A DNA stretch of 23,665 nt from a virus. How positions within the stretch are numbered: the stretch's first letter is position 1; each line of letters starts with the position of its first letter. The notes under the pieces were generated by a model. It had not been told where the DNA came from and did no database searches. It saw nothing but the letters and a program-made list of their open reading frames with translations. Shown piece after piece: positions 11,801 through 21,466 of the stretch. The DNA lies in the IMG/VR virus record IMGVR_UViG_3300017772_000135, positions 1 through 23,665 of that record; one strand, written 5' to 3'. A program made the position numbers and the translations under genes.

Positions 11801-12890
11801 CATACCAGCCGCTGCGCTTGAGATGGCCTATGCAACTACAGGGGTTAGCCGTGAAGAAATGGACGCATACAAACGATCCTTTGCCCCTCGATGGGAGAAA
11901 GGTTCTGTGTTGTTGCCTCTTGGTAAAACAGAGGATGGTAAGATTGAGTACATAAATTTTAGTACATCAAACCCATATGATACTTTGTTTAGATTCACTA
12001 ACCGTGTTTTGAATGAAGCAGATGACGCGGTCAAAGAAGGTAAAGATCTTAGTCAAGTTCTTAGTGATGTGGCTCTATCTTCAATCAACGAAGCTTTTGA
12101 GCCGTTTCTATCCGAGGCTATGTTAACAGAATCCCTATTTGATATTTCTCTTAGAGGAGGCCGCACTGCTACAGGAGCCGAAGTCTACAGCAAATCAGAC
12201 AACCCACTTTTAAAAGGTTGGAAACGAATAACACACGTTGCTGACACTCTTGCACCAAACATACTACCTTTTGATATTAAAGGCGGTAAGATTGAGCCTA
12301 GCCGTTTTCTTCGCGGGGTTGCAGGATCTAAAGACGGTGCAATTAGTAGCATGGACAAGATGGGTAGAGAACGAAACCCAGCGGGTGAGTTGCTAAGACA
12401 GATGAGCGGAGTATCTAAACTAGAGTTCGATCCCAAACGGGGTTTAGAGTACGGTGCATACCGCTTGGGTCAACTTCAAACAGACGCCAAAAGAAAGTTT
12501 AACCGGGTTACTGACGATTACAACGCCGGATCAAACACATTAAGGAATTCTTTTCAAGCAGCCAACAACGACAAATTTAGAATAGATAGAGAATACTTTC
12601 GTATGATAGAAGACTTACGAGCCATGGGTCTTTCCGATACGGATATTCGAAAAGTATTTAAGAAAGAGAACATTGGCGGTATCAAAGGCATTATGCGTGG
12701 TGTATTTGAACCATTCAAGGTTACACCTAAAAACTTTAGAGAGATGCGCGACGTAGGAATAATAGATAAGTTTCCTCGTGAGGAGATCGATCAGATCAGA
12801 CGTAACATGAACGGCATGCCACTTGATCCAAAGGAAGAATCGCAACGTTCAAAACCAGCGCCCAGTACCAATCCCTTTTTAAAGAATTAA
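8874..12890 (+). CDS. Giant internal virion / DNA-ejection protein (1338 aa)
   Basis: The longest protein in the window, best read as the large ejection protein (the role T7 gp16 or P22 gp16 plays). Residues about 35-115 are Gly/Ala-rich and amphipathic (VVSGVIGIGEGLAGLGAAAV and VVPGIGAAAKVGKLAQAARA), a further hydrophobic segment is near 967-985 (TTTAVIPAAALEMAYATTGV), and the middle is charged and helical. NPFL occurs at residues 3-6 and 16-19 and again at the extreme C-terminus (PSTNPFLKN). I saw no lytic transglycosylase or protease motif. AAAGGAT at the end of the previous gene serves as ribosome-binding site. The stop overlaps the convergent polymerase stop. Function is inferred from size, order and composition. 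Confidence 0.6.
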   Translation: MSNPFLSQPSQASSNPFLSSSEPAKEDDGKQFYDDTIVGELGEGVVSGVIGIGEGLAGLGAAAVDIVADTNYGDKVTETAEAARDALGLDPEGFVGKGAEIVTQFVVPGIGAAAKVGKLAQAARAAKGLAKTPMTKAERFTLAGKELAAAGIVDAAVSTDGMTTIGDWVETGPTQTSDLIGLSGREKALARIGNKLRVGAEGGLLGGVAQGALMGAGKAVTGTAKTIGETEFGKVSAQAVNQKLDQVGKSMNKLVEQRMLAKPGSSEELGAFKSKVADAIAFGRYRGFLPGQVADKRLLLDGQVQIQIKKADRILSDLETEMDSFIKKTPEGDGNLDRVGIMSKVESYLTESNDVVKNRVLGELPKGVRQNAVRMRKHIDELSNDVLQSNFLKENNFVTKSGENIQDVVEQNINSYLRRRYKIFEDSKYVPTEESIKVADDFFRVNKRAVEKELTKMARQDVSEFTELSDDFMARNGLKKVTDKDGVRIEVGAKVTDEVAKKAREGFLNEYSIQAREKLGGGRMARDRLETGMFISRKNVPKALRQLLGEVDDPAEAYLGTIADLAQFTAVDDYFGTVAKLADQNSGIGKLFINGNKYSPEQQAGLRRKGYIKLGGDDGASSGVQAVGRKATEEEQLIGRSGWGSLDGYYVPESVYKNLTRHVMGEDTIGATAMRGLVGSFLKLKGISQYSKTVLSPITQVRNFTTALAFATANGNIPVIGRGGSLKDASQAVFSNITNKAAPTSGVGKKVGKAFGLGEKEADVIFADLADAQQRGVLGTNAELREIQDTLNKGLGITARDPKNFVEAVAGSAGGTREKLARGVGKYAKKFEDVYQGSDDFWKYFNYHAEQSHLRNALKGATPEQQITYLTKNMDDVSIEMSEAIRRGDANIDELIKTRAAQIVRDTVPNYNKAASGLVQLGRRLPVGNFISFPAEIYRTGFNIVKQGLDDMASDIPTIQTRGRNRLLSFATTTAVIPAAALEMAYATTGVSREEMDAYKRSFAPRWEKGSVLLPLGKTEDGKIEYINFSTSNPYDTLFRFTNRVLNEADDAVKEGKDLSQVLSDVALSSINEAFEPFLSEAMLTESLFDISLRGGRTATGAEVYSKSDNPLLKGWKRITHVADTLAPNILPFDIKGGKIEPSRFLRGVAGSKDGAISSMDKMGRERNPAGELLRQMSGVSKLEFDPKRGLEYGAYRLGQLQTDAKRKFNRVTDDYNAGSNTLRNSFQAANNDKFRIDREYFRMIEDLRAMGLSDTDIRKVFKKENIGGIKGIMRGVFEPFKVTPKNFREMRDVGIIDKFPREEIDQIRRNMNGMPLDPKEESQRSKPAPSTNPFLKN

Positions 12891-14794
12891 TCTATCTCAC
12901 CCCAGTTGTCCTTGAGTTCGTCGTCTACTTTAGAGGGGACTTTCAAGACATCCGACAACCCATTTTCCATTATGTGCTTGATGTTGTGAGCTTGGTCGTC
13001 ACCCTCTACTGAAAAACATAACTCATCATGCACCGTAAGCATAGGTAAAAGTCCCTCGTTGTAACAATCAAGCATCGCCTTTTTAGTTTGGTCGGCTGCT
13101 GATCCTTGGATCAATTTGTTTAATGCCTTGTAAGTAAAGGCTCTTCTCAAGGGCTGACCATATTCTTTCATGGCATCTTCATAGGGCAACGGCTTCTTGT
13201 ATCCAAATGTCCTTGGCTCCCACAGGTGGAAACGACAACGACGACCTAGTATTGTGCGAACCTGCCCTGTACCTGACGCTTGTTTACTAGCCAAGTCTGC
13301 AAGGCCCTTAACAAACGGCACCTTTTCACGGTGTGTTGCTAATAGTTCCCCTGCTTCGTCGGTTGAGATATCTAGCTGTGCGGCGAGTTTACCTTTACCC
13401 ATACCGTACATGATACCCAGGTTCACGACCTTTGCTTCTTTACGTTTAATCCCTGCTATGTCTGCTACCATCTGGTGCAGATCCACATCACCGCTGTGGT
13501 ATTCATCAACAATCTTATCAACGATGGGGTGTCTGAAATCTCCCTTCAGGCTTGCCGCAAAGTGCACCAGTAACCTCGGCTCTTGGCTCGAATAGTCAAA
13601 CGATCCCCACTTGGTTCCTTCTTCTGGTATAAACAGGCCACGTATCATCTTCTTAATTTCTGGATCTCGTGCAGGAATCTGCTGTAAGTTTGGGTTGGAC
13701 GATGAAAACCGCCCAGTCACTGTACCGCCGTCATCGGAACGAAGCTGATGGAACTCGCAATGGATACGACCCTTGTGTTCATGCTTCATAATTGTTTCGA
13801 TAAACGTGCTATCAGCCTTGTCAAATTCACGTAGCCTGACGATCATTTGTGCAATAGGGTGCTGATGGGTGTTGAGGTACTGTTTGGTGAATGAGGGAGC
13901 ACCTGCGTCAGTCTTAGGGTATGCTAGGTTTAACTCTTCAAACACTGCGGCCACTGATGCCGCTGCCCATGGCTCAATTTTGATTTGAGTTTGTTTAAAT
14001 ATCTCGTCCTTGATTTGTTTGGATTTAGTCTTGAGAAGTTTCTTAGCTTGCCCTGCTTTATCCAGATCCACACGCACACCCAACTGGCGCATGTCACACA
14101 TCATCGGGATCAGGCTTGTCTCTAAATTCCAGATGTTCCAAAGGTCTTGCTTATCCAGTTCTATCTTCAGGCGTTCCCACAAACGCAGGGTCATCCCTGC
14201 ATCCTGTTCAGCATACCGTCCTACAGACTCAGGCGGTAGCCTGTACATTTCTGCTTTGGGATCGAAGCCCCACTCTGCTGCTGATACACGGAGTAACTTC
14301 TCATCTTTTCGTTCATCGAGGTAATCACGACCTAGATTGTTTAGGCTGTATGACCAACGGTTCTCATCAACCACCGCCCCTGTAATCATGGTATCGATGA
14401 TTCGCCCTTCAACCTTTATGCCCTCGGCACGTAACCAACCCAGATCGTAAGTAGCATTGTGCATGATCTTATCTATGTCGGGTGTTGCCATCTGTTTCTG
14501 TAGCCACTTGAGCGCGATCCTTGCATCCATGTTGTGACCGTTTTCGTGCCGGATCGGGAAGTAACCCTGCCAATCTCCTGCGGCTACGGCTATACCTACA
14601 ACGTATCCATCTTTACGAACCCATCCTGGGCCTAACGTCGTCAGGTTTGGATCACATGTTTCTAGATCGATTGCGATCTGTTTATATTTTGTAAGGTCAG
14701 GAAACTCCGATGGAATGTTCCACGTTAGTTCCTTTCCTTGGTTCATCTGCTTTGCAATAACATGATCTTTCTCAAATAGATTACCTTGATTCAT
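12887..14794 (-). CDS. polA: DNA polymerase I family A with 3'-5' exonuclease
   Basis: Replicative phage DNA polymerase, 635 residues from ATG at 14794 (an in-frame TTG at 14800 with GGAG six bases upstream is an alternative). The proofreading domain is intact: Exo I D43-L-E45, Exo II N113/D117, Exo III Y194-x3-D198. Polymerase motif A is FDYSSQEPR (D400, E405), motif B is R451-x3-K455-x3-L459-x3-Y463-G, and motif C is H589-D-E591. There is no 5'-3' exonuclease domain. Two oddities stand out: Leu459 replaces the residue equivalent to E. coli Phe762, and motif A reads SSQEPR where the classical form is SQIELR. It is last in the leftward replication operon, overlapping the upstream DUF6378-like gene by 14 bases. 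Confidence 0.95.
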   Translation of the reverse strand: MNQGNLFEKDHVIAKQMNQGKELTWNIPSEFPDLTKYKQIAIDLETCDPNLTTLGPGWVRKDGYVVGIAVAAGDWQGYFPIRHENGHNMDARIALKWLQKQMATPDIDKIMHNATYDLGWLRAEGIKVEGRIIDTMITGAVVDENRWSYSLNNLGRDYLDERKDEKLLRVSAAEWGFDPKAEMYRLPPESVGRYAEQDAGMTLRLWERLKIELDKQDLWNIWNLETSLIPMMCDMRQLGVRVDLDKAGQAKKLLKTKSKQIKDEIFKQTQIKIEPWAAASVAAVFEELNLAYPKTDAGAPSFTKQYLNTHQHPIAQMIVRLREFDKADSTFIETIMKHEHKGRIHCEFHQLRSDDGGTVTGRFSSSNPNLQQIPARDPEIKKMIRGLFIPEEGTKWGSFDYSSQEPRLLVHFAASLKGDFRHPIVDKIVDEYHSGDVDLHQMVADIAGIKRKEAKVVNLGIMYGMGKGKLAAQLDISTDEAGELLATHREKVPFVKGLADLASKQASGTGQVRTILGRRCRFHLWEPRTFGYKKPLPYEDAMKEYGQPLRRAFTYKALNKLIQGSAADQTKKAMLDCYNEGLLPMLTVHDELCFSVEGDDQAHNIKHIMENGLSDVLKVPSKVDDELKDNWGEID

Positions 14795-15068
14795 CTTCAA
14801 ACTCTGCTCCCAATGCTGAATATCCGCACTTGTCGATCCACGAATCTTTGTGGTCGATGGTCTCCAACAATCGACAGGTCTTCACCCAGTCCATCATCAG
14901 AGCCACATGCTTTGCTGTTATTTTATTATGTGTTGTGAATGCGTCCTGTACTATTACATTCCAACCAGTTGCTATTCGGTCGAAGTTATCCTTCGCATCT
15001 CCATAGTCTTTTGCCCTGTTACCGTTGATCAGTTCTTTCGCTGTATCTAGATAGTCGTTTCGTTTCAT
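14781..15068 (-). CDS. DUF6378-like phage protein
   Basis: A 95-residue protein with the pattern AKELINGNRAKDYGDAKDNF, then a helix with HNKITAKHVALMMDWVKTCR and a C-terminal DSWIDKCGYSALGA. This order (DYG, NF, W, a D/HVALMM helix, then DSW-D-GY-AL) matches the family I know as DUF6378, common in phages and often near nucleotide or DNA metabolism genes. No catalytic role is established to my knowledge. The start overlaps the helicase stop (ATGA), and the end overlaps the polymerase start, so the three are probably translationally coupled. The family assignment is from memory of the pattern. Confidence 0.7.
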   Translation of the reverse strand: MKRNDYLDTAKELINGNRAKDYGDAKDNFDRIATGWNVIVQDAFTTHNKITAKHVALMMDWVKTCRLLETIDHKDSWIDKCGYSALGAEFEDESR

Positions 15069-16594
15069 ATTTCATACCTGTATTTTTTATCCGACTCTAT
15101 AAGGTAGAGATTCTGCTTGGCACGAGTTACTGCCACATAAAATATCCTGTCTTCATCCTCTGGGTGTTTGCCCTCTACACATGATTTGGTAGATCCCAAG
15201 TATACCGCTACGTTGTCATCCTCACCACCCTTCATGGCATGGATCGTAGAGATCTTGATCCTTGGTTCTTTATATATGCTCTCACCCCTACGCTCAACCG
15301 ATCTAATGTAAATCTTTTCTTCCTCCGATAAACGTATGATATCTGTTTGATCTGTACTGATCGGGGCTAATAAACCAAACTCCTTGACCAGTTTGTCGTA
15401 GGTCAACAGTTCGTCTGGGCCAGCAGCATCCAATAGTTTCATAGATCCACGTTTAACAACCGCTCCCTTTCCTACTTTGGGCACCATCTCATACATCTTC
15501 CTAACCCTACCGACATACACACCTTTGCCGCTACTGATATCTTTCCACACAGACATAGCCTCTAGTTTCTTTTCCGGCACAGACCACCTCCCCTTACGGC
15601 TGTAGAAGTATTCATTCTGCTCCAAGAACTCTGCTATGTCGTTCACAAACGAGTTGGTTCTTGCCATGATTGTCCATGAACCTCGATCCAACGGCAATGC
15701 CCACAGGCTCATGACCCTCGTAACTCTGCCCTCTTCTTGTTTTGGATAGAACTCTTTCTCCAATCTACCTGGTATACGGTGTGAGATGTCCATAGAAAGT
15801 TCCCAGACGCTCCGTGGTAAGCGATACGACTGATTGAGTACCTCAACCCTATCCGTGCAGTTAATGAAGTCATCGACGTTTACAGACGTCCAACGGTGAA
15901 TAGCCTGATCATCATCCCCCGCAATCAATACCTCGTCCGCATGTTCGGACATCTTCTTTACCATCTCCCATTGTAATGGTGTAAGATCTTGGGCTTCATC
16001 AACAATCAGAAGATCTAAGTTCGGTGGCTCTGCTATATCTATGTACTTGGCAATCATGTCAGAGAAATCTACACGATTGGTTTTGGACTTGTACTCAAGC
16101 AGTTGCTTTTCAATCTGCACAAGTTTGGGGAAACTCAAGTCGTGATCTCCCTCGTAATTAAACTCAAAGTCCAAGTCAGACATCCGATAGACCGACCGCA
16201 TAATTATCTGTAGGTACTTGGCTCCTGATCCTTTCATGCTTGGCATAGCAATGCCGTCGTTCATTGAGGTGTTATCTGCACCGTCAAAGTCCAATGCAAG
16301 CATCTGTCCTAGTCTTTTAAAATCCTGACGGCTCAACACGTCTCCATGGGACAAACCCAATCCATGATACCCAGTGGCGTGGAGCGTTTTAAAATGTGGA
16401 AAGTCTTGCTTGGTTAAACTAAATTTGGCACAGGCTCGATCAACAAACTCACCTATCGCTTTGGTCGTAAACGAAACCACACCAATGCGAGAAGGATGCA
16501 CACCTTCTTCAAGCTTTGCCTGTACTCGTTCAATCAAAGTATAAGTCTTGCCGCAACCTGGAGGTCCCAAGATCAGCGTAGCATTATCAATCAT
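15065..16594 (-). CDS. UvrD/Rep-like superfamily 1 DNA helicase
   Basis: ATP-dependent DNA helicase of 509 residues. SF1 motifs appear in order: Walker A GPPGCGKT (10-17), Ia VVSFTTKA, II D199-E-A-Q-D, III GDDDQAIHRW (226-235), IV QSYRLP (255-260), V STIHAMKGGEDDN, VI YVAVTRAKQNLYL (486-498, with Arg491). It is shorter than UvrD (about 720) and keeps a compact 2B region, closer to small phage SF1 helicases such as Dda. Likely roles are fork progression or recombination; no DnaB-type helicase is seen in the window. The start lies inside the last codons of the AlpA-like gene (8-base overlap), and no strong ribosome-binding site is visible, so coupled translation is likely. Confidence 0.92.
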   Translation of the reverse strand: MIDNATLILGPPGCGKTYTLIERVQAKLEEGVHPSRIGVVSFTTKAIGEFVDRACAKFSLTKQDFPHFKTLHATGYHGLGLSHGDVLSRQDFKRLGQMLALDFDGADNTSMNDGIAMPSMKGSGAKYLQIIMRSVYRMSDLDFEFNYEGDHDLSFPKLVQIEKQLLEYKSKTNRVDFSDMIAKYIDIAEPPNLDLLIVDEAQDLTPLQWEMVKKMSEHADEVLIAGDDDQAIHRWTSVNVDDFINCTDRVEVLNQSYRLPRSVWELSMDISHRIPGRLEKEFYPKQEEGRVTRVMSLWALPLDRGSWTIMARTNSFVNDIAEFLEQNEYFYSRKGRWSVPEKKLEAMSVWKDISSGKGVYVGRVRKMYEMVPKVGKGAVVKRGSMKLLDAAGPDELLTYDKLVKEFGLLAPISTDQTDIIRLSEEEKIYIRSVERRGESIYKEPRIKISTIHAMKGGEDDNVAVYLGSTKSCVEGKHPEDEDRIFYVAVTRAKQNLYLIESDKKYRYEI

Positions 16595-16790
16595 CAGTAC
16601 GACGACCTTCTAACCACTCGTCAATATCCTGCTTGCTCCAACGACTAGCAGATCGTCGGGCATCTCCGTTGCCAAGTTTGTAAGGCTTGGGAAAGTTTCC
16701 CTCGTTCACCCACTTGTATATGGCGGACTCGGATACATCGAGCCAGTCGGCTATATCCTTTGCCTTTAAAAAATTAGAATGGGATTTCAT
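16587..16790 (-). CDS. AlpA-like helix-turn-helix DNA-binding protein
   Basis: A 67-residue protein with a MerR/AlpA-type HTH: LKAKDIADWLDVSESAIYKW (8-27), then the wing NFPKPYKLGNGDARRSASRW and WSKQDIDEWLEGR. This is the form of AlpA regulators and phage excisionases. With no integrase visible, a regulatory or replication-initiation accessory role is more plausible than excision. Its ribosome-binding site (AAGGAG, seven bases before the ATG) lies inside the last codons of the primase, and the reading frames overlap by 17 bases. Its own 3' end overlaps the helicase start by 8 bases. Confidence 0.85.
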   Translation of the reverse strand: MKSHSNFLKAKDIADWLDVSESAIYKWVNEGNFPKPYKLGNGDARRSASRWSKQDIDEWLEGRRTDD

Positions 16791-18312
16791 TCTCTATCTC
16801 CTTTATAGGTATTGCTACCTCTTCGTTTTCAAATGCAGGAACCCACCAAACACGAACGGTGGTTCTTGATCCATCTTCCTTGTTTATATTCTTGTGTCCA
16901 TAACACTCTCTATCACCGTTTAGTTTCTTCAACTGCTCTTGGATCTGTGCCCTTGTAAAAGCAGTGAACCTCCTGTTGTGCAGGAACTCTGTCAAACCTG
17001 ATATGGTAAACGAAGTGTACCCCTCGTTGTCTGTCCATGGTTTACCTTGTAACAATTCCTCTGGGTGCAGTGCTCTAATACGACTGGTACAATACGACTT
17101 GAGTAGCGCCTTGAACTCTCCACCCACCGTCAATTCCTCTGGAACTTCTTGAGTCGAAGCCTCTAACATTAACTTTTGAAGTATAGATAGCCATGTCTTT
17201 GGCCTCATGGTTGGAGGCACAACTTGAGCCTGTTCCATACAAGCACGTTGGAATAACGTCTGGTTCTGAAGCTGTTCCGTATTTAACTGAATACGTTGCC
17301 CTGCTACCGTAAGGAAATACAATCGGGGTTCGGACTTAATAATCATCAGGTTCTGTACCTCTATGTCAGATCCTATCTCCCCAATACCAAACTTCAAAGA
17401 CATGCACAGTTCTTTATCACAGTAACTCTTGAACGGTTCCTGTTCGCACGTATAAAAATATTCTTTCTTATCTAAACTCTTCTGTAATCCTAAGACTTCT
17501 TTGGCTTCTAGCGGTGGAGAAAACAACTGTTGGTTCATTGTTTCCATCTCAGCTTTCCAATTGTCCCCATGCTTCATCCGACAATACACACCAAGCATAA
17601 ACAGTTTCTTGTTGCGATCCTCACCAGACGGGCCATCACGAAACAAATGCTGAAGACATGGCGGAGCATCCGACAATAGTTTCCTCGGCTTATTGTTCTT
17701 GGATCTCAGCCCCTCCAATTCCGAAACATGGATCTTGGATTTCTCTATGGCTTTGAGAAAGTCCTCAATCTCCATGGCCTCAACCTTTTCGTTGAAGCAA
17801 TATCTTTGTGGCAATTCCGCACTGAAGTATGGCAAGTTTATGAAGTTACCTACGTCGCCCCTGTCCGCAAGTATAATGTCCTGCTTCGGAAAGATCTCAC
17901 AGCCACTGTGCCCAATAGCAACTGCCATCTCTAGCAGATACTCTCGCACAACCTTTGCCTGTTCGTACTCTTTTAAGAACAGATACAAATGTGCACCGCC
18001 AGACTTCGATCTGCAATGCAGCAACGGTAGCTTTAGTTTCTGTATTCGACGCTGTAGTTCGTTGTGATCCAGGTCATAGATATCTATGTCCAAGGCACCC
18101 CACCTACATTTGTTTTCCTCATTGATCGGGATAGCCCCGACCCCCTGCTCACCATCAATGTGTCCTTGCATAATCTTAACTGTTAATGCTTGACGTACAA
18201 TCCTACTGTCAGCATCGGCCTTACCATTTCTGCCAATCCGACCCACTGTAGTTGTACCATGTGCAACCTTCGAACCTTCGAAGGCCGCAAGCATTTCGTC
18301 TGCTAATGACAT
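16774..18312 (-). CDS. Archaeo-eukaryotic-type (TOTE-like) DNA primase
   Basis: A 512-residue protein whose N-terminal half matches the archaeo-eukaryotic primase fold used by TOTE-type and phage primases: GVGAIPINEENKCRWGALDID with the metal-binding pair D75-x-D77, then SKSGGAHLYLF with His108, then IFPKQD and GNFINLPYF. It should synthesise primers for the family A polymerase. The middle holds a cysteine set (YTCEQEPFKSYCDKELC, near 300) of the zinc or Fe-S kind seen in PriCT-like modules. The C-terminal 150 residues look helical and may bind DNA. The protein ends EIENEIPF; the last five residues are identical to those of the SSB-like protein encoded just upstream. Start ATG 18312 has AGGAG six bases upstream. 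Confidence 0.85.
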   Translation of the reverse strand: MSLADEMLAAFEGSKVAHGTTTVGRIGRNGKADADSRIVRQALTVKIMQGHIDGEQGVGAIPINEENKCRWGALDIDIYDLDHNELQRRIQKLKLPLLHCRSKSGGAHLYLFLKEYEQAKVVREYLLEMAVAIGHSGCEIFPKQDIILADRGDVGNFINLPYFSAELPQRYCFNEKVEAMEIEDFLKAIEKSKIHVSELEGLRSKNNKPRKLLSDAPPCLQHLFRDGPSGEDRNKKLFMLGVYCRMKHGDNWKAEMETMNQQLFSPPLEAKEVLGLQKSLDKKEYFYTCEQEPFKSYCDKELCMSLKFGIGEIGSDIEVQNLMIIKSEPRLYFLTVAGQRIQLNTEQLQNQTLFQRACMEQAQVVPPTMRPKTWLSILQKLMLEASTQEVPEELTVGGEFKALLKSYCTSRIRALHPEELLQGKPWTDNEGYTSFTISGLTEFLHNRRFTAFTRAQIQEQLKKLNGDRECYGHKNINKEDGSRTTVRVWWVPAFENEEVAIPIKEIENEIPF

Positions 18313-18336
18313 GCTTGGCTCCTGTTAGGTGAAAGA

Positions 18337-18368
18337 CACGGTAAATCTTTTTGAGAAAATTTACCGTG
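18337..18368 (-). other. Hairpin between SSB-like and primase genes
   Basis: CACGGTAAAT (18337-18346) and ATTTACCGTG (18359-18368) are perfect 10-base inverted repeats, with a further TTT/AAA pairing possible beyond a one-base bulge and a five-base loop. It occupies most of the 64-base spacer between the SSB-like stop and the primase start. On the transcribed minus strand the stem is followed by TCTTTC, not a real U-tract, so it is more likely a partial attenuator or RNA-processing or stability element than a full terminator. Confidence 0.6.
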
Positions 18369-18376
18369 CCAAGTTT

Positions 18377-19159
18377 TTAAAAGGGTATTTCGTTGTCGCT
18401 AACAGGATCAACTGGCTCTTCTGACTGTGCCTTAACCTCTCCCGCTTGTACCGATTCTCTGAAAGCCTTTGCTTCCACCAACAGATCACGGTTACTAACC
18501 AAGCTTTCTTTCGCTACTTGATAGTTGAAATAATCACCCTTGTCATTAGACTCTTCAATGGCAAATATTTTCCACATCGTAGCGTACACCGCAGGAGTAA
18601 CAAGCTGCTCCGTCTTTGGGTTCTTGATCTTTTGCATGGCAATCTGTGTCTTCCAACGTCGGCTGACCTTCAACTGACTAGACTTCATGTCTATCACTAC
18701 AGGTTGAAATGTTCCGTCGTCCGATACAATCAAGCAATAATGCTGATCAGACTTCACCAAATCGTTGCCGTTGGATAGAACTTCTTTAGATCCCTCTCGC
18801 TTTGCACTGGTAACCATTGGATCGTTGGCGGCTAGTTCACCCTGGAACCCACCACCTTGCTCTCTTGGTATGAACTCAAGATACTTAGTGGTTTGAAAAC
18901 ACGGTATAACTACAATGCCGTTTGATCCTTCCCAATACTGACCAGTGACATTGTTAAAGATGTCCCCTTGTGATGCACCCTCAATGTGTTCGGCTTTGCC
19001 TTTCTTGAGTTGTGGTGACATGGGTTGCAAGATCCGAACAAACGGTATCTGCATCTCACTGCTATCAAATGATGCGCCATCTCCGGCGGTATCAAAGATA
19101 TCGTCTAGTACATCGGTGCTTAACTCTGCACTTTTTGCTTTTGCTACTGCGTTAGCCAT
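18377..19159 (-). CDS. SSB-like protein with acidic NEIPF tail
   Basis: A 260-residue protein that I read as a phage single-stranded DNA-binding protein. The N-terminal half has IPFVRILQPMSPQLKKGKAE, GDIFNNVTGQYWEG, and VVIPCFQTTKYLEFIPREQGGGF, a beta-rich pattern found in a widespread phage family located beside primases and polymerases. The C-terminus is acidic (EEPVDPVSDNEIPF), like the DDDIPF tail bacterial SSBs use to recruit partners. The DNA-binding role is inferred from the tail and the neighbours; an OB fold was not demonstrated. The start has a strong AGGAGGAAAGCATAATG, and the ATG overlaps the preceding stop (TAATG). Confidence 0.65.
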   Translation of the reverse strand: MANAVAKAKSAELSTDVLDDIFDTAGDGASFDSSEMQIPFVRILQPMSPQLKKGKAEHIEGASQGDIFNNVTGQYWEGSNGIVVIPCFQTTKYLEFIPREQGGGFQGELAANDPMVTSAKREGSKEVLSNGNDLVKSDQHYCLIVSDDGTFQPVVIDMKSSQLKVSRRWKTQIAMQKIKNPKTEQLVTPAVYATMWKIFAIEESNDKGDYFNYQVAKESLVSNRDLLVEAKAFRESVQAGEVKAQSEEPVDPVSDNEIPF

Positions 19160-19716
19160 TATGCTTTCCTCCTGATTTCAGCTGCGTTAGCTATGAATGC
19201 CCCGAACATATCGAGGTCGATTGGTTTACCATCAACGATGCGTTCCTTAACAAACGCCTTGAGTGTAGATGGGTGAACGTGGGTCTTGGTCTTCGGATCA
19301 AAACCCTTCTCATGCAGGAGGCCAACGACGTCCCCTGCTATGTTGTCTTCGCCTTTGCCGAACGAACAGGTCACATCGTTCTTGATGATGTCGTCTAGCC
19401 CGTTATCCCGTAGCCATTCAAAGGCTTCTTCCTTGCGGTCTTGTGGAATAGAAGCATGTACAATCATCTTCCTAGATACAGACACCCCGTCCACATCTAA
19501 ACGATCAACCCCCATCTCATCCATCAAAGCAGGAATGTTTTCAACTGACAGCCTATGCTTCTCAGCTTTCAAGGCTTTCATGTTTAACTCTGCATCCTCA
19601 ATGTTTTGTTCGACGCTGCGGAGTTGACGGACAAGATCACTGAGTTGCTTTCCTGTTCCGGTATCGACACTGGCAAACTTGTCACCCTCGTCAATTAAGT
19701 CTTCAAATATATCCAT
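19159..19716 (-). CDS. Coiled-coil replication-operon protein
   Basis: A 185-residue protein, first in the leftward replication operon. I place the start at ATG 19716 (MDIFEDLIDEG) because GAGGAAA sits five to six bases upstream; a longer frame to 19752 would run into the divergent promoter region. Residues about 25-60 form a coiled coil (LVRQLRSVEQNIEDAELNMK), followed by ENIPALMDEMGVDRLDVDG, SIPQDRKEEAFEWLRDNGLD and a conserved-looking TCSFGKGED. The same order of coiled coil, LMDE, WLR-NG and FG-GED occurs in unnamed phage proteins near SSB or recombination genes. The biochemical role is unknown; an accessory role in ssDNA handling is plausible from context. Confidence 0.75.
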   Translation of the reverse strand: MDIFEDLIDEGDKFASVDTGTGKQLSDLVRQLRSVEQNIEDAELNMKALKAEKHRLSVENIPALMDEMGVDRLDVDGVSVSRKMIVHASIPQDRKEEAFEWLRDNGLDDIIKNDVTCSFGKGEDNIAGDVVGLLHEKGFDPKTKTHVHPSTLKAFVKERIVDGKPIDLDMFGAFIANAAEIRRKA

Positions 19717-19740
19717 AAGTGTTTCCTCTTCAGGGTTCGG

Positions 19741-19769
19741 TTGACAAACCATTTCGCCATCCGTATTGT
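19741..19769 (+). promoter_or_regulatory. Rightward sigma70-type promoter
   Basis: A perfect -35 TTGACA (19741-19746), a 17-base spacer, and a -10 TATTGT (19764-19769, 4 of 6 to consensus). Transcription would begin near 19776, just before the GGAGG (19780-19784) of the SNF2-like helicase. A short inverted repeat GGTT-GACA-AACC (19739-19750) covers the -35 and could be an operator. Predicted from sequence only. Confidence 0.55.
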
Positions 19770-19771
19770 GG

Positions 19772-19801
19772 ACTCTACTGGAGGTATGTGATGACTGTCA
19801 A
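19772..19801 (-). promoter_or_regulatory. Leftward sigma70-type promoter, face to face
   Basis: On the minus strand a perfect TTGACA (19801-19796) is followed after 18 bases by TAGAGT (19777-19772, 4 of 6 to TATAAT). Transcription would begin near 19765 and read the replication operon, leaving about a 49-base leader. Its -35 lies in the first codons of the divergent helicase gene, and its -10 is two bases from the rightward -10, so both promoters cannot be occupied together. Confidence 0.45.
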
Positions 19802-21257
19802 GTACAAATTTAAGTTGCCCCCATTCAAACACCAGGAAGATGCACTGGAAAAAGGATGGAATAAAATAGAGTTCGGTTACTTCATGGAAATGGGTACAGG
19901 TAAATCGAAAGTCCTACTCGATAACATGGGTATGTTGTTCCAAGCAGGCCGGATAAACTTCGCCTTGATACTCGCGCCAAAGGGTGTGTACCGCAACTGG
20001 GTGACCAAAGAAATACCAGAACACATGTCCGATGATGTACCGCATCGGGTCATCCGATGGGTCGCCTCCCCAAATAAAAAACAGCAGGCAGAAATGAAAT
20101 CAGTCAAAGAACCATTCGCAGGGCTGACAATCTTTGTCATGAATGTTGAGTCGTACTCAACACGCAAGGGTCAGGTTGCAGGAGAATGGATGGCTCGTGC
20201 GCTTGGGCCTTATGGTATGATTGCAATCGACGAATCAACCACCATCAAAAACCAAAAAGCCAAACGCACAAAATCATTACTAAAAATAGCAAGCCAGTTC
20301 AAGTACAGAAGACTATTGACAGGGTCTCCAATTACAAAAAGTCCGCTTGACATCTATGCACAGACCGAGTTCCTCCGCCCTGGTCTCATGGGTCATGAGT
20401 CCTTCTATTCATTTCAGGGTCGGTACGCTGTTGTTCAACGTCGGACCATGGGTAGCCACGCTTTCCAACAGATCGTAGGATACAAAAATCTTGATGAACT
20501 GTCTGAAAGAATCGACTCGTTCAGCTTCCGTGTACTCAAGAAGGATTGCTTGGATCTGCCAGACAAAATCTACACGGCTCGGTATGTCACTCTGACTGAC
20601 GAACAATATAAAATGTACAGCGATCTACAACAACAAGCCATGTTGTTGTTTGACGATGGCGAGATAGTCTCTGCTCCCGCTGTCATTACTCAAATGTTAC
20701 GCATCCAACAGGTTATGTCTGGGCATTTAAAGACTGACGACGGAGAGATGAAGTACTTTGCCTCACGTCGCATGGATGCACTGCAAGAAATTATTGAAGA
20801 GTACGACGGTAAAGCAATCATCTGGTCTCGGTTCCGATACGATATCATTAAGATAACGGAGATGCTAAACAAAAAGTTTGGAGAAGGATGTGCCGCTGCA
20901 TACTACGGAGATACTTCCGATGACGACCGCAACGATATTGTTACCAGGTTTCAGAAAGATAAAACACTTAGGTTCTTTGTTGGTAACCCATCGACCGCCG
21001 GATATGGTCTGACTTTGACGGAAGCTAACCTTGTGGTATACTATGCTAATGACTTTAACTTGGAAACAAGAATGCAATCCGAAGATCGAGCACACCGCAT
21101 TGGACAAAAGAACAACGTGACATACATCGATCTGATATCCGAGGGTACAATAGACGAGCGGATCGTTAACACTCTCCGCAGTAAGATTGACATCGGTGCA
21201 AAAGTATTAGGAGAAGAGGCAAAAGAATGGCTAAGTCTAAAACCCACGAAGAGTTGA
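19791..21257 (+). CDS. SNF2-like superfamily 2 helicase/ATPase
   Basis: A 488-residue DNA translocase or helicase. I choose ATG 19791 (MTVKYKFKLPPFKHQ) because GGAGG is six bases upstream; a longer frame to 19719 has no ribosome-binding site and would cover the promoters. SNF2/SF2 motifs are present: Q-like FKHQ, Walker A MGTGKS (34-39), motif II D147-E-S-T, III LLTGSPI (175-181), IV IIWSRF, V GYGLTL, and VI Q429-S-E-D-R-A-H-R-I-G-Q, the classic SNF2 box. The DEST Walker B in place of DEAH is typical of phage members. A role in replication fork remodelling or recombination is likely. It is transcribed divergently from the rest of the replication genes. Confidence 0.93.
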   Translation: MTVKYKFKLPPFKHQEDALEKGWNKIEFGYFMEMGTGKSKVLLDNMGMLFQAGRINFALILAPKGVYRNWVTKEIPEHMSDDVPHRVIRWVASPNKKQQAEMKSVKEPFAGLTIFVMNVESYSTRKGQVAGEWMARALGPYGMIAIDESTTIKNQKAKRTKSLLKIASQFKYRRLLTGSPITKSPLDIYAQTEFLRPGLMGHESFYSFQGRYAVVQRRTMGSHAFQQIVGYKNLDELSERIDSFSFRVLKKDCLDLPDKIYTARYVTLTDEQYKMYSDLQQQAMLLFDDGEIVSAPAVITQMLRIQQVMSGHLKTDDGEMKYFASRRMDALQEIIEEYDGKAIIWSRFRYDIIKITEMLNKKFGEGCAAAYYGDTSDDDRNDIVTRFQKDKTLRFFVGNPSTAGYGLTLTEANLVVYYANDFNLETRMQSEDRAHRIGQKNNVTYIDLISEGTIDERIVNTLRSKIDIGAKVLGEEAKEWLSLKPTKS

Positions 21258-21466
21258 TCGAAACAGTTGTAGACTACAAACGTGGGCTACGAAACTTGAA
21301 GACCGGAACAGACGAACTGGTTCGCATATCAGGATTAACACCAGACATAGCCGCCGCATTCTTGACAGATATGAAACGAAACAGTGTCACTCAGATCCGT
21401 GGGTATTCCAAAGAACCAGAACGCTTACGCAAAGGAAAAGAAAAAGCCCCGTCGAAACGGGGCTAG
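21227..21466 (+). CDS. Small basic protein coupled to SNF2-like helicase
   Basis: A 79-residue basic protein whose ATG lies 31 bases inside the helicase gene; AGGAGA at about 21209-21214 precedes it. It is helical (HEELIETVVDYKRGLRNLK, then LTPDIAAAFLTDMKRNSVTQ) with a Lys/Arg-rich tail (RLRKGKEKAPSKRG) suited to nucleic-acid binding. Its last codons coincide with the hairpin of the leftward terminator, and its TAG stop overlaps the last stem base. No named domain recognised; a helicase partner is a plausible guess from coupling. Confidence 0.7.
   Translation: MAKSKTHEELIETVVDYKRGLRNLKTGTDELVRISGLTPDIAAAFLTDMKRNSVTQIRGYSKEPERLRKGKEKAPSKRG
21436..21464 (-). terminator. Intrinsic terminator for the leftward small-gene cassette
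   Basis: An eight-base perfect stem AGCCCCGT (21445-21452) / ACGGGGCT (21457-21464) closes a four-base loop. On the minus strand the loop reads TTCG and the stem is followed by TTTTCTTTTCC, a textbook terminator 40 bases after the ribbon-helix-helix stop. On the plus strand the stem is followed only by AGTTTG, so termination of the SNF2 transcript would be weak. The element lies within the coding end of the 79-residue gene. Confidence 0.85.

Follow-up and report, generated by a model that had tools for sequence, protein, structure and literature searches.

Phages P2 and 186 decide between transcriptional directions with the help of promoters placed face to face, whose transcripts overlap and whose direction is set by a pair of repressors. 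A different arrangement, the bidirectional promoter, was reportedly described in bacteria by Warman and colleagues in 2021. Bacterial bidirectional promoters fit a pair of sigma70 promoters into a single polymerase footprint and have conserved key -10 bases, and their divergent starts lie 7-25 bp apart (PMC10268837). Among these distances 18 bp is the commonest, and 10 bp is also common (PMC12825309). At the level of RNA, hairpins at the 5' end impede the 5'-end conversion by RppH, and the ompA and papA transcripts are cited as examples of mRNAs with stabilising 5' stem-loops (PMC3997798).

The locus compared here with these systems lies in a window (the whole stretch of DNA analysed) of 23,665 nucleotides, corresponding to positions 1 to 23,665 of the IMG/VR virus record IMGVR_UViG_3300017772_000135. 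The original prediction of a perfect TTGACA on either strand, with spacers of 17 and 18 bp and -10 elements two bases apart, agrees with what is present. The rightward sigma70-type promoter (+ strand) consists of the -35 TTGACA at 19741-19746, a 17-bp spacer and the -10 TATTGT at 19764-19769, and the leftward one (- strand) of the -35 TTGACA at 19801-19796, an 18-bp spacer and the -10 TAGAGT at 19777-19772. Sigma70-type elements on both strands thus lie inside one polymerase footprint, and the likely start codons at 19716 (leftward) and 19791 (rightward) leave a spacer of 74 bp between them. Nowhere else in the window is a perfect TTGACA followed, after a 16-18 bp spacer, by a -10 matching at least 4/6 positions; shuffled windows contained a mean of 1.1 such sites, and one shuffled window in 400 showed an opposed overlapping pair, in a test that was chosen post hoc. 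A looser-threshold promoter scan of the whole window found 24 sites versus 28.5 expected in shuffles and hence no enrichment, so that the case for the promoters rests on conservation and not on consensus.

To the right of the spacer lies the gene of an SNF2-family helicase (19791-21257, +), which is preceded by the Shine-Dalgarno sequence GGAGG (19780-19784, +) and holds the leftward -35 in its codons 2-4. To the left runs the replication operon (12887-19716, -), for which the predicted number of seven genes was recovered, in the order DUF7307, Pam3_Gp34, AEP primase, AlpA-like HTH, UvrD helicase, DUF6378 and family A DNA polymerase. The first of them, DUF7307 (19162-19716, -), is similar to gp33 of Pam3, which is annotated there as 'host-nuclease inhibitor', and most likely starts at 19716, behind the Shine-Dalgarno sequence GAGGAAA. 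The longest open reading frame (19159-19752, -) would start inside the promoter region; the Shine-Dalgarno sequence and the relatives favour the start at 19716. Further to the right, a strong intrinsic-terminator-like site with an 8-bp GC-rich stem and a T-rich tail (21445-21464, -) comes after the right-hand cluster of leftward genes, and a FaeA-like winged-HTH protein (PF04703; 23379-23648, -) represents a possible regulator. No RNA polymerase gene was seen in the window.

When the starts are placed about 7 nt past each -10, transcription is predicted to begin at ~19776 (+) and ~19765 (-), so that the two transcripts would run apart and would not overlap. The transcript overlap of 12 bases that had originally been proposed is therefore contradicted by the geometry of the site. 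Calculated from the -10 positions, the predicted divergent starts are ~11 bp apart, with ~10 bp between them, which falls into the range of 7-25 bp given for the bidirectional class and, as in that class, leads one to expect mutual exclusion of the two promoters. The commonest form of this class shares one -10 and has starts 18 bp apart, whereas the phage site has separate abutting -10s, both preceded by a perfect -35 of their own, and encodes a conserved RNA hairpin across one of the promoters. On the basis of these predicted positions the site would fit the published bidirectional class, and would not fit a convergent switch of the P2/186 type. Such a switch would decide between lysis and lysogeny or between early and late expression through convergent, colliding transcripts and a repressor that picks the direction. 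The original prediction pointed this way with promoters facing each other, overlapping transcripts and a small repressor that would choose between them, and the opposed overlapping promoters with regulatory genes nearby do recall P2 and 186. However, transcripts overlap there and are predicted to diverge here, each of the two promoters serves genes of replication, a divergently paired integrase or repressor gene is absent from the site, and HTVC027P, a cultured relative for which an expression study exists, was described as lytic (PMC12753301). We regard a switch of this kind as very improbable.

The conservation of the two promoters was followed in a first set of 159 IMG/VR loci with 82 distinct spacers, for which the leader motif described below was not required, and in a later set of 316 loci with 115 distinct spacers, for which it was required; the distant relatives L194, L195, L197, L208 and L213 were added through one further collection pattern. 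The proposal of two overlapping, presumably mutually exclusive promoters for the SNF2 helicase and the replication operon is supported by hexamers that are kept in relatives, though to a different extent: the leftward hexamers were found in nearly all of them and the rightward ones only partly, in the clade of the window and in several distant clades. Among the 115 distinct spacers the leftward -35 reads TTGACA in 94 and TTGCAA, TTGTAA or TTGCAT in 18. Codon 2 of SNF2, with which this element overlaps, varies in its amino acid (T, N, D, V, S or G), yet its third base is T in 110/115 spacers, and the valine at codon 3 is encoded by GTC in 94/94 cases and by no other valine codon, which indicates a constraint on the leftward -35 at the nucleotide level. 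The commonest sequences of the leftward -10 are TATTGT, TAGAGT and TATAGT, and in seven relatives of 27-57 kb the leftward promoter is the only match of the record to TTGACA-N16-18-TANNNT. Judged by these comparisons, the promoter predicted for the replication operon is clearly under selection.

Some positions of a -10 element, namely T1, A2 and T6, matter most for sigma70, and exactly these are invariant in the rightward -10 of the window's clade (16 distinct sequences), in which the rightward TTGACAA is invariant as well and the bases preceding it are variable. The pattern TTGAC[A/G]-17-TANNNT, always placed 0-2 bp from the leftward -10, occurs in 31 spacers, and distant clades with different sequence between the hexamers carry TTGACA-17-TAAGTT (L152), TTGACA-17-TATTGT (L327) or TTGACG-17-TATGTT (L195). 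In clade B the rightward promoter is a poor one (TTGATT-18-TATCCG), and in clade C it cannot be recognised, so that bidirectionality may not be universal; clade A mostly has a weak rightward -10 (TAAGGT, 3/6). One might suppose that only the leftward promoter is real, that the rightward TTGACA merely forms the 3' side of the stem in the leader and that transcription of SNF2 is weak or begins at another site. In favour of this, the TTGACA bases are mostly paired in the hairpin of clade A, clades B and C have lost the rightward -35, and the majority of the rightward -10s are weak. Nevertheless, TTGAC[A/G]-17-TANNNT recurs at fixed spacing in clades whose stems are otherwise different (L327, L195, L197 and L152), and SNF2 has a strong Shine-Dalgarno sequence with no other upstream space for a promoter, which makes a single leftward promoter rather improbable.

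The inverted repeat GGTT-GACA-AACC, originally noted over the rightward -35, is present at 19739-19750 with arms of 4 bp but is not kept in relatives, which have, for instance, AGTT-GACA-AGTC (L019) or GGTT-GACA-AATT (L024); being unconserved, it was rejected as an operator. What is conserved over the rightward -35 and its spacer is the capacity of the opposite strand to form a hairpin where the leftward mRNA is predicted to begin (19738-19763, -; CGG-A-UGGCGAA-AUGG-UUUGUCA-A-CCG); the 3' arm of this hairpin is complementary to the rightward -35. Each of the 59 distinct leaders in the first set (59/59) folds such a hairpin near the predicted leftward RNA start, with a mean z of -2.3 over 57 leaders, and the stem mostly begins 6-10 nt past the leftward -10, i.e., near the predicted +1. 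The leader of the window itself, at -12.8 kcal/mol and a z of -2.36, folds modestly better than shuffles. The stems differ between clades, being UGGCAAA/UUUGUCA in clade A (that of the window), CGGAUAGC/GCUACCG in B, AUGGACC/GGUUCAU in C, ACAACAAG/CUUGUUG in D, and others elsewhere, and 15 representatives with different stems gave a combined p of 1.5e-9, although these are related by descent and so not entirely independent of each other. In clade B, 20 cells are changed on both sides of the stem versus 9.0 in shuffles (0/500), and the covariation score is 0.170 compared to a maximum of 0.066 when slid; covariation is modest in clade C and thin in clade A, where one pair shows a double change. 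The hairpin is therefore kept by pairing and not by sequence, strongly so in clade B and weakly in clade A taken alone. The leader matched none of 4227 Rfam families at E values up to 5.

A clade-specific dyad between the rightward -35 and -10 would also be expected of a DNA operator that drifts together with its protein, as in operator/repressor pairs, and through which a phage repressor of the RHH, AlpA-like or winged-HTH type would steer transcription. Genes for small DNA-binding proteins do lie nearby (AlpA-like PF05930, FaeA-like PF04703 and a weak RHH_5 below the cut-off of Pfam), and in one relative the operon is headed by an AlpA-like gene. On the other hand, the mismatches within stems are biased towards G-U when read on the leftward RNA strand, where G-U and A-C were counted 55:25 compared to 151:238 in shuffles, or 20:11 when counted by position (p 0.003), and an excess of this kind is not expected from a symmetrical DNA operator. 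A one-base bulge in clade B would spoil a symmetrical DNA half-site and not an RNA stem, and the stem stays in place relative to the predicted leftward start. Consequently, an operator appears unlikely, and the behaviour of the conserved inverted repeat seems closer to that of a hairpin in the leftward leader RNA than to that of an operator in DNA. The G-U bias, which indicates RNA, also speaks against the idea of a replication origin in the spacer, with the hairpin as a DNA structure used for priming. This idea would be in accordance with a spacer that lies between replication genes and is transcribed divergently, but the GC skew merely tracks gene direction and no iterons were seen at the site, and we consider an origin highly improbable.

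Downstream of the hairpin, the leader motif CCUGAAGAGG (19725-19734, -) contains the Shine-Dalgarno sequence of the leftward operon and occurs in all 82 distinct spacers (82/82) of the set that was collected without requiring it. The sequence CCTGAAGAGG (19725-19734, -) is invariant in 82/82 spacers and longer than a Shine-Dalgarno sequence requires; it was not found elsewhere in the window. Three relatives carry an inserted gene between the leader and DUF7307, which encodes a 2OG-Fe(II) oxygenase in L097 (PF13640, tested on the L097 protein), a similar oxygenase-like protein in L029 and an AlpA-like HTH protein in L061, and in each of them the promoter, the hairpin and CCUGAAGAGG remain intact beside SNF2. 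This suggests that the element acts for any gene placed first, and speaks against a translational operator dedicated to DUF7307. L152, too, has an extra gene between its leader and DUF7307. In the leaders of L039, L018, L030, L037 and L059, an insertion of ~55 nt between the hairpin and the Shine-Dalgarno sequence adds two hairpins, of the GGATTTAAATCC and GGGGG...CCCCC types.

A phage nucleotide search gave no near match. The nearest named phages by SNF2 are DSL-LC04, psg01, HTVC023P and HTVC027P, with 43-52% identity. SNF2 is divergent from the replication genes across the 70-bp junction of the record in HTVC023P, and an additional short leftward gene adjoins the spacer in DSL-LC04, psg01 and HTVC027P. 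Two opposed perfect TTGACA elements, 36 bp end to end, are located between SNF2 and the leftward genes of psg01 (L165:18-53). Pelagiphages of the HTVC023P type (HTVC023P, HTVC027P and psg01) thus resemble the phage studied here in their divergent SNF2 and replication genes and their short spacer, but their SNF2 proteins are only 43-51% identical, their spacers are AT-rich, and no such leader hairpin was recognised by eye in the cultured HTVC023P and HTVC027P or in the genome psg01. The main text of a pelagiphage transcriptome paper holds no promoter or start-site data, and a scan of genome contigs with the SNF2 protein for a possible host gave no match.

The comparison led us to propose, with a probability of roughly 0.6, that the spacer carries a bidirectional promoter of the host sigma70 type together with a 5'-terminal hairpin that would protect the mRNA of the leftward transcript. 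Host RNA polymerase would bind the 74-bp spacer in either of two mutually exclusive orientations, so that the two promoters would compete for it. Rightward binding would yield the SNF2 mRNA with a very short leader of ~15 nt, and leftward binding the seven-gene replication mRNA with a leader of ~49 nt. The stem-loop at about +1 to +3 of the leftward mRNA might then block decay that depends on the 5' end (RppH/RNase E route) and in this way stabilise the long replication transcript, to which CCUGAAGAGG would recruit ribosomes. Like the ompA and papA elements, the stem-loop would lie within a few nt of the predicted 5' end; it differs from them in belonging to a phage operon, in diverging in sequence between clades and in overlapping an opposing promoter.

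Since the stem is encoded by the -35 of the opposing promoter and its 17-bp spacer, one stretch of 60 bp would hold an RNA structure in addition to two promoters. The promoters are of an ordinary, known class, and the hairpin packed in with them is less ordinary; as far as the open literature was searched, two promoters overlapping a leader hairpin conserved in shape constitute a new variant. We tentatively suggest, at somewhat below even odds, that in an uncultured marine phage lineage, by joining opposed promoters and a shape-conserved, sequence-divergent 5' hairpin in a single spacer of ~60 bp, the choice of promoter and the stability of the replication mRNA have become evolutionarily coupled. 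The locus offers a testable model of how marine phages may divide host RNA polymerase between two replication transcripts, and its 115 distinct spacers form a natural comparative set on the evolution of promoters and RNA structure over shared bases.
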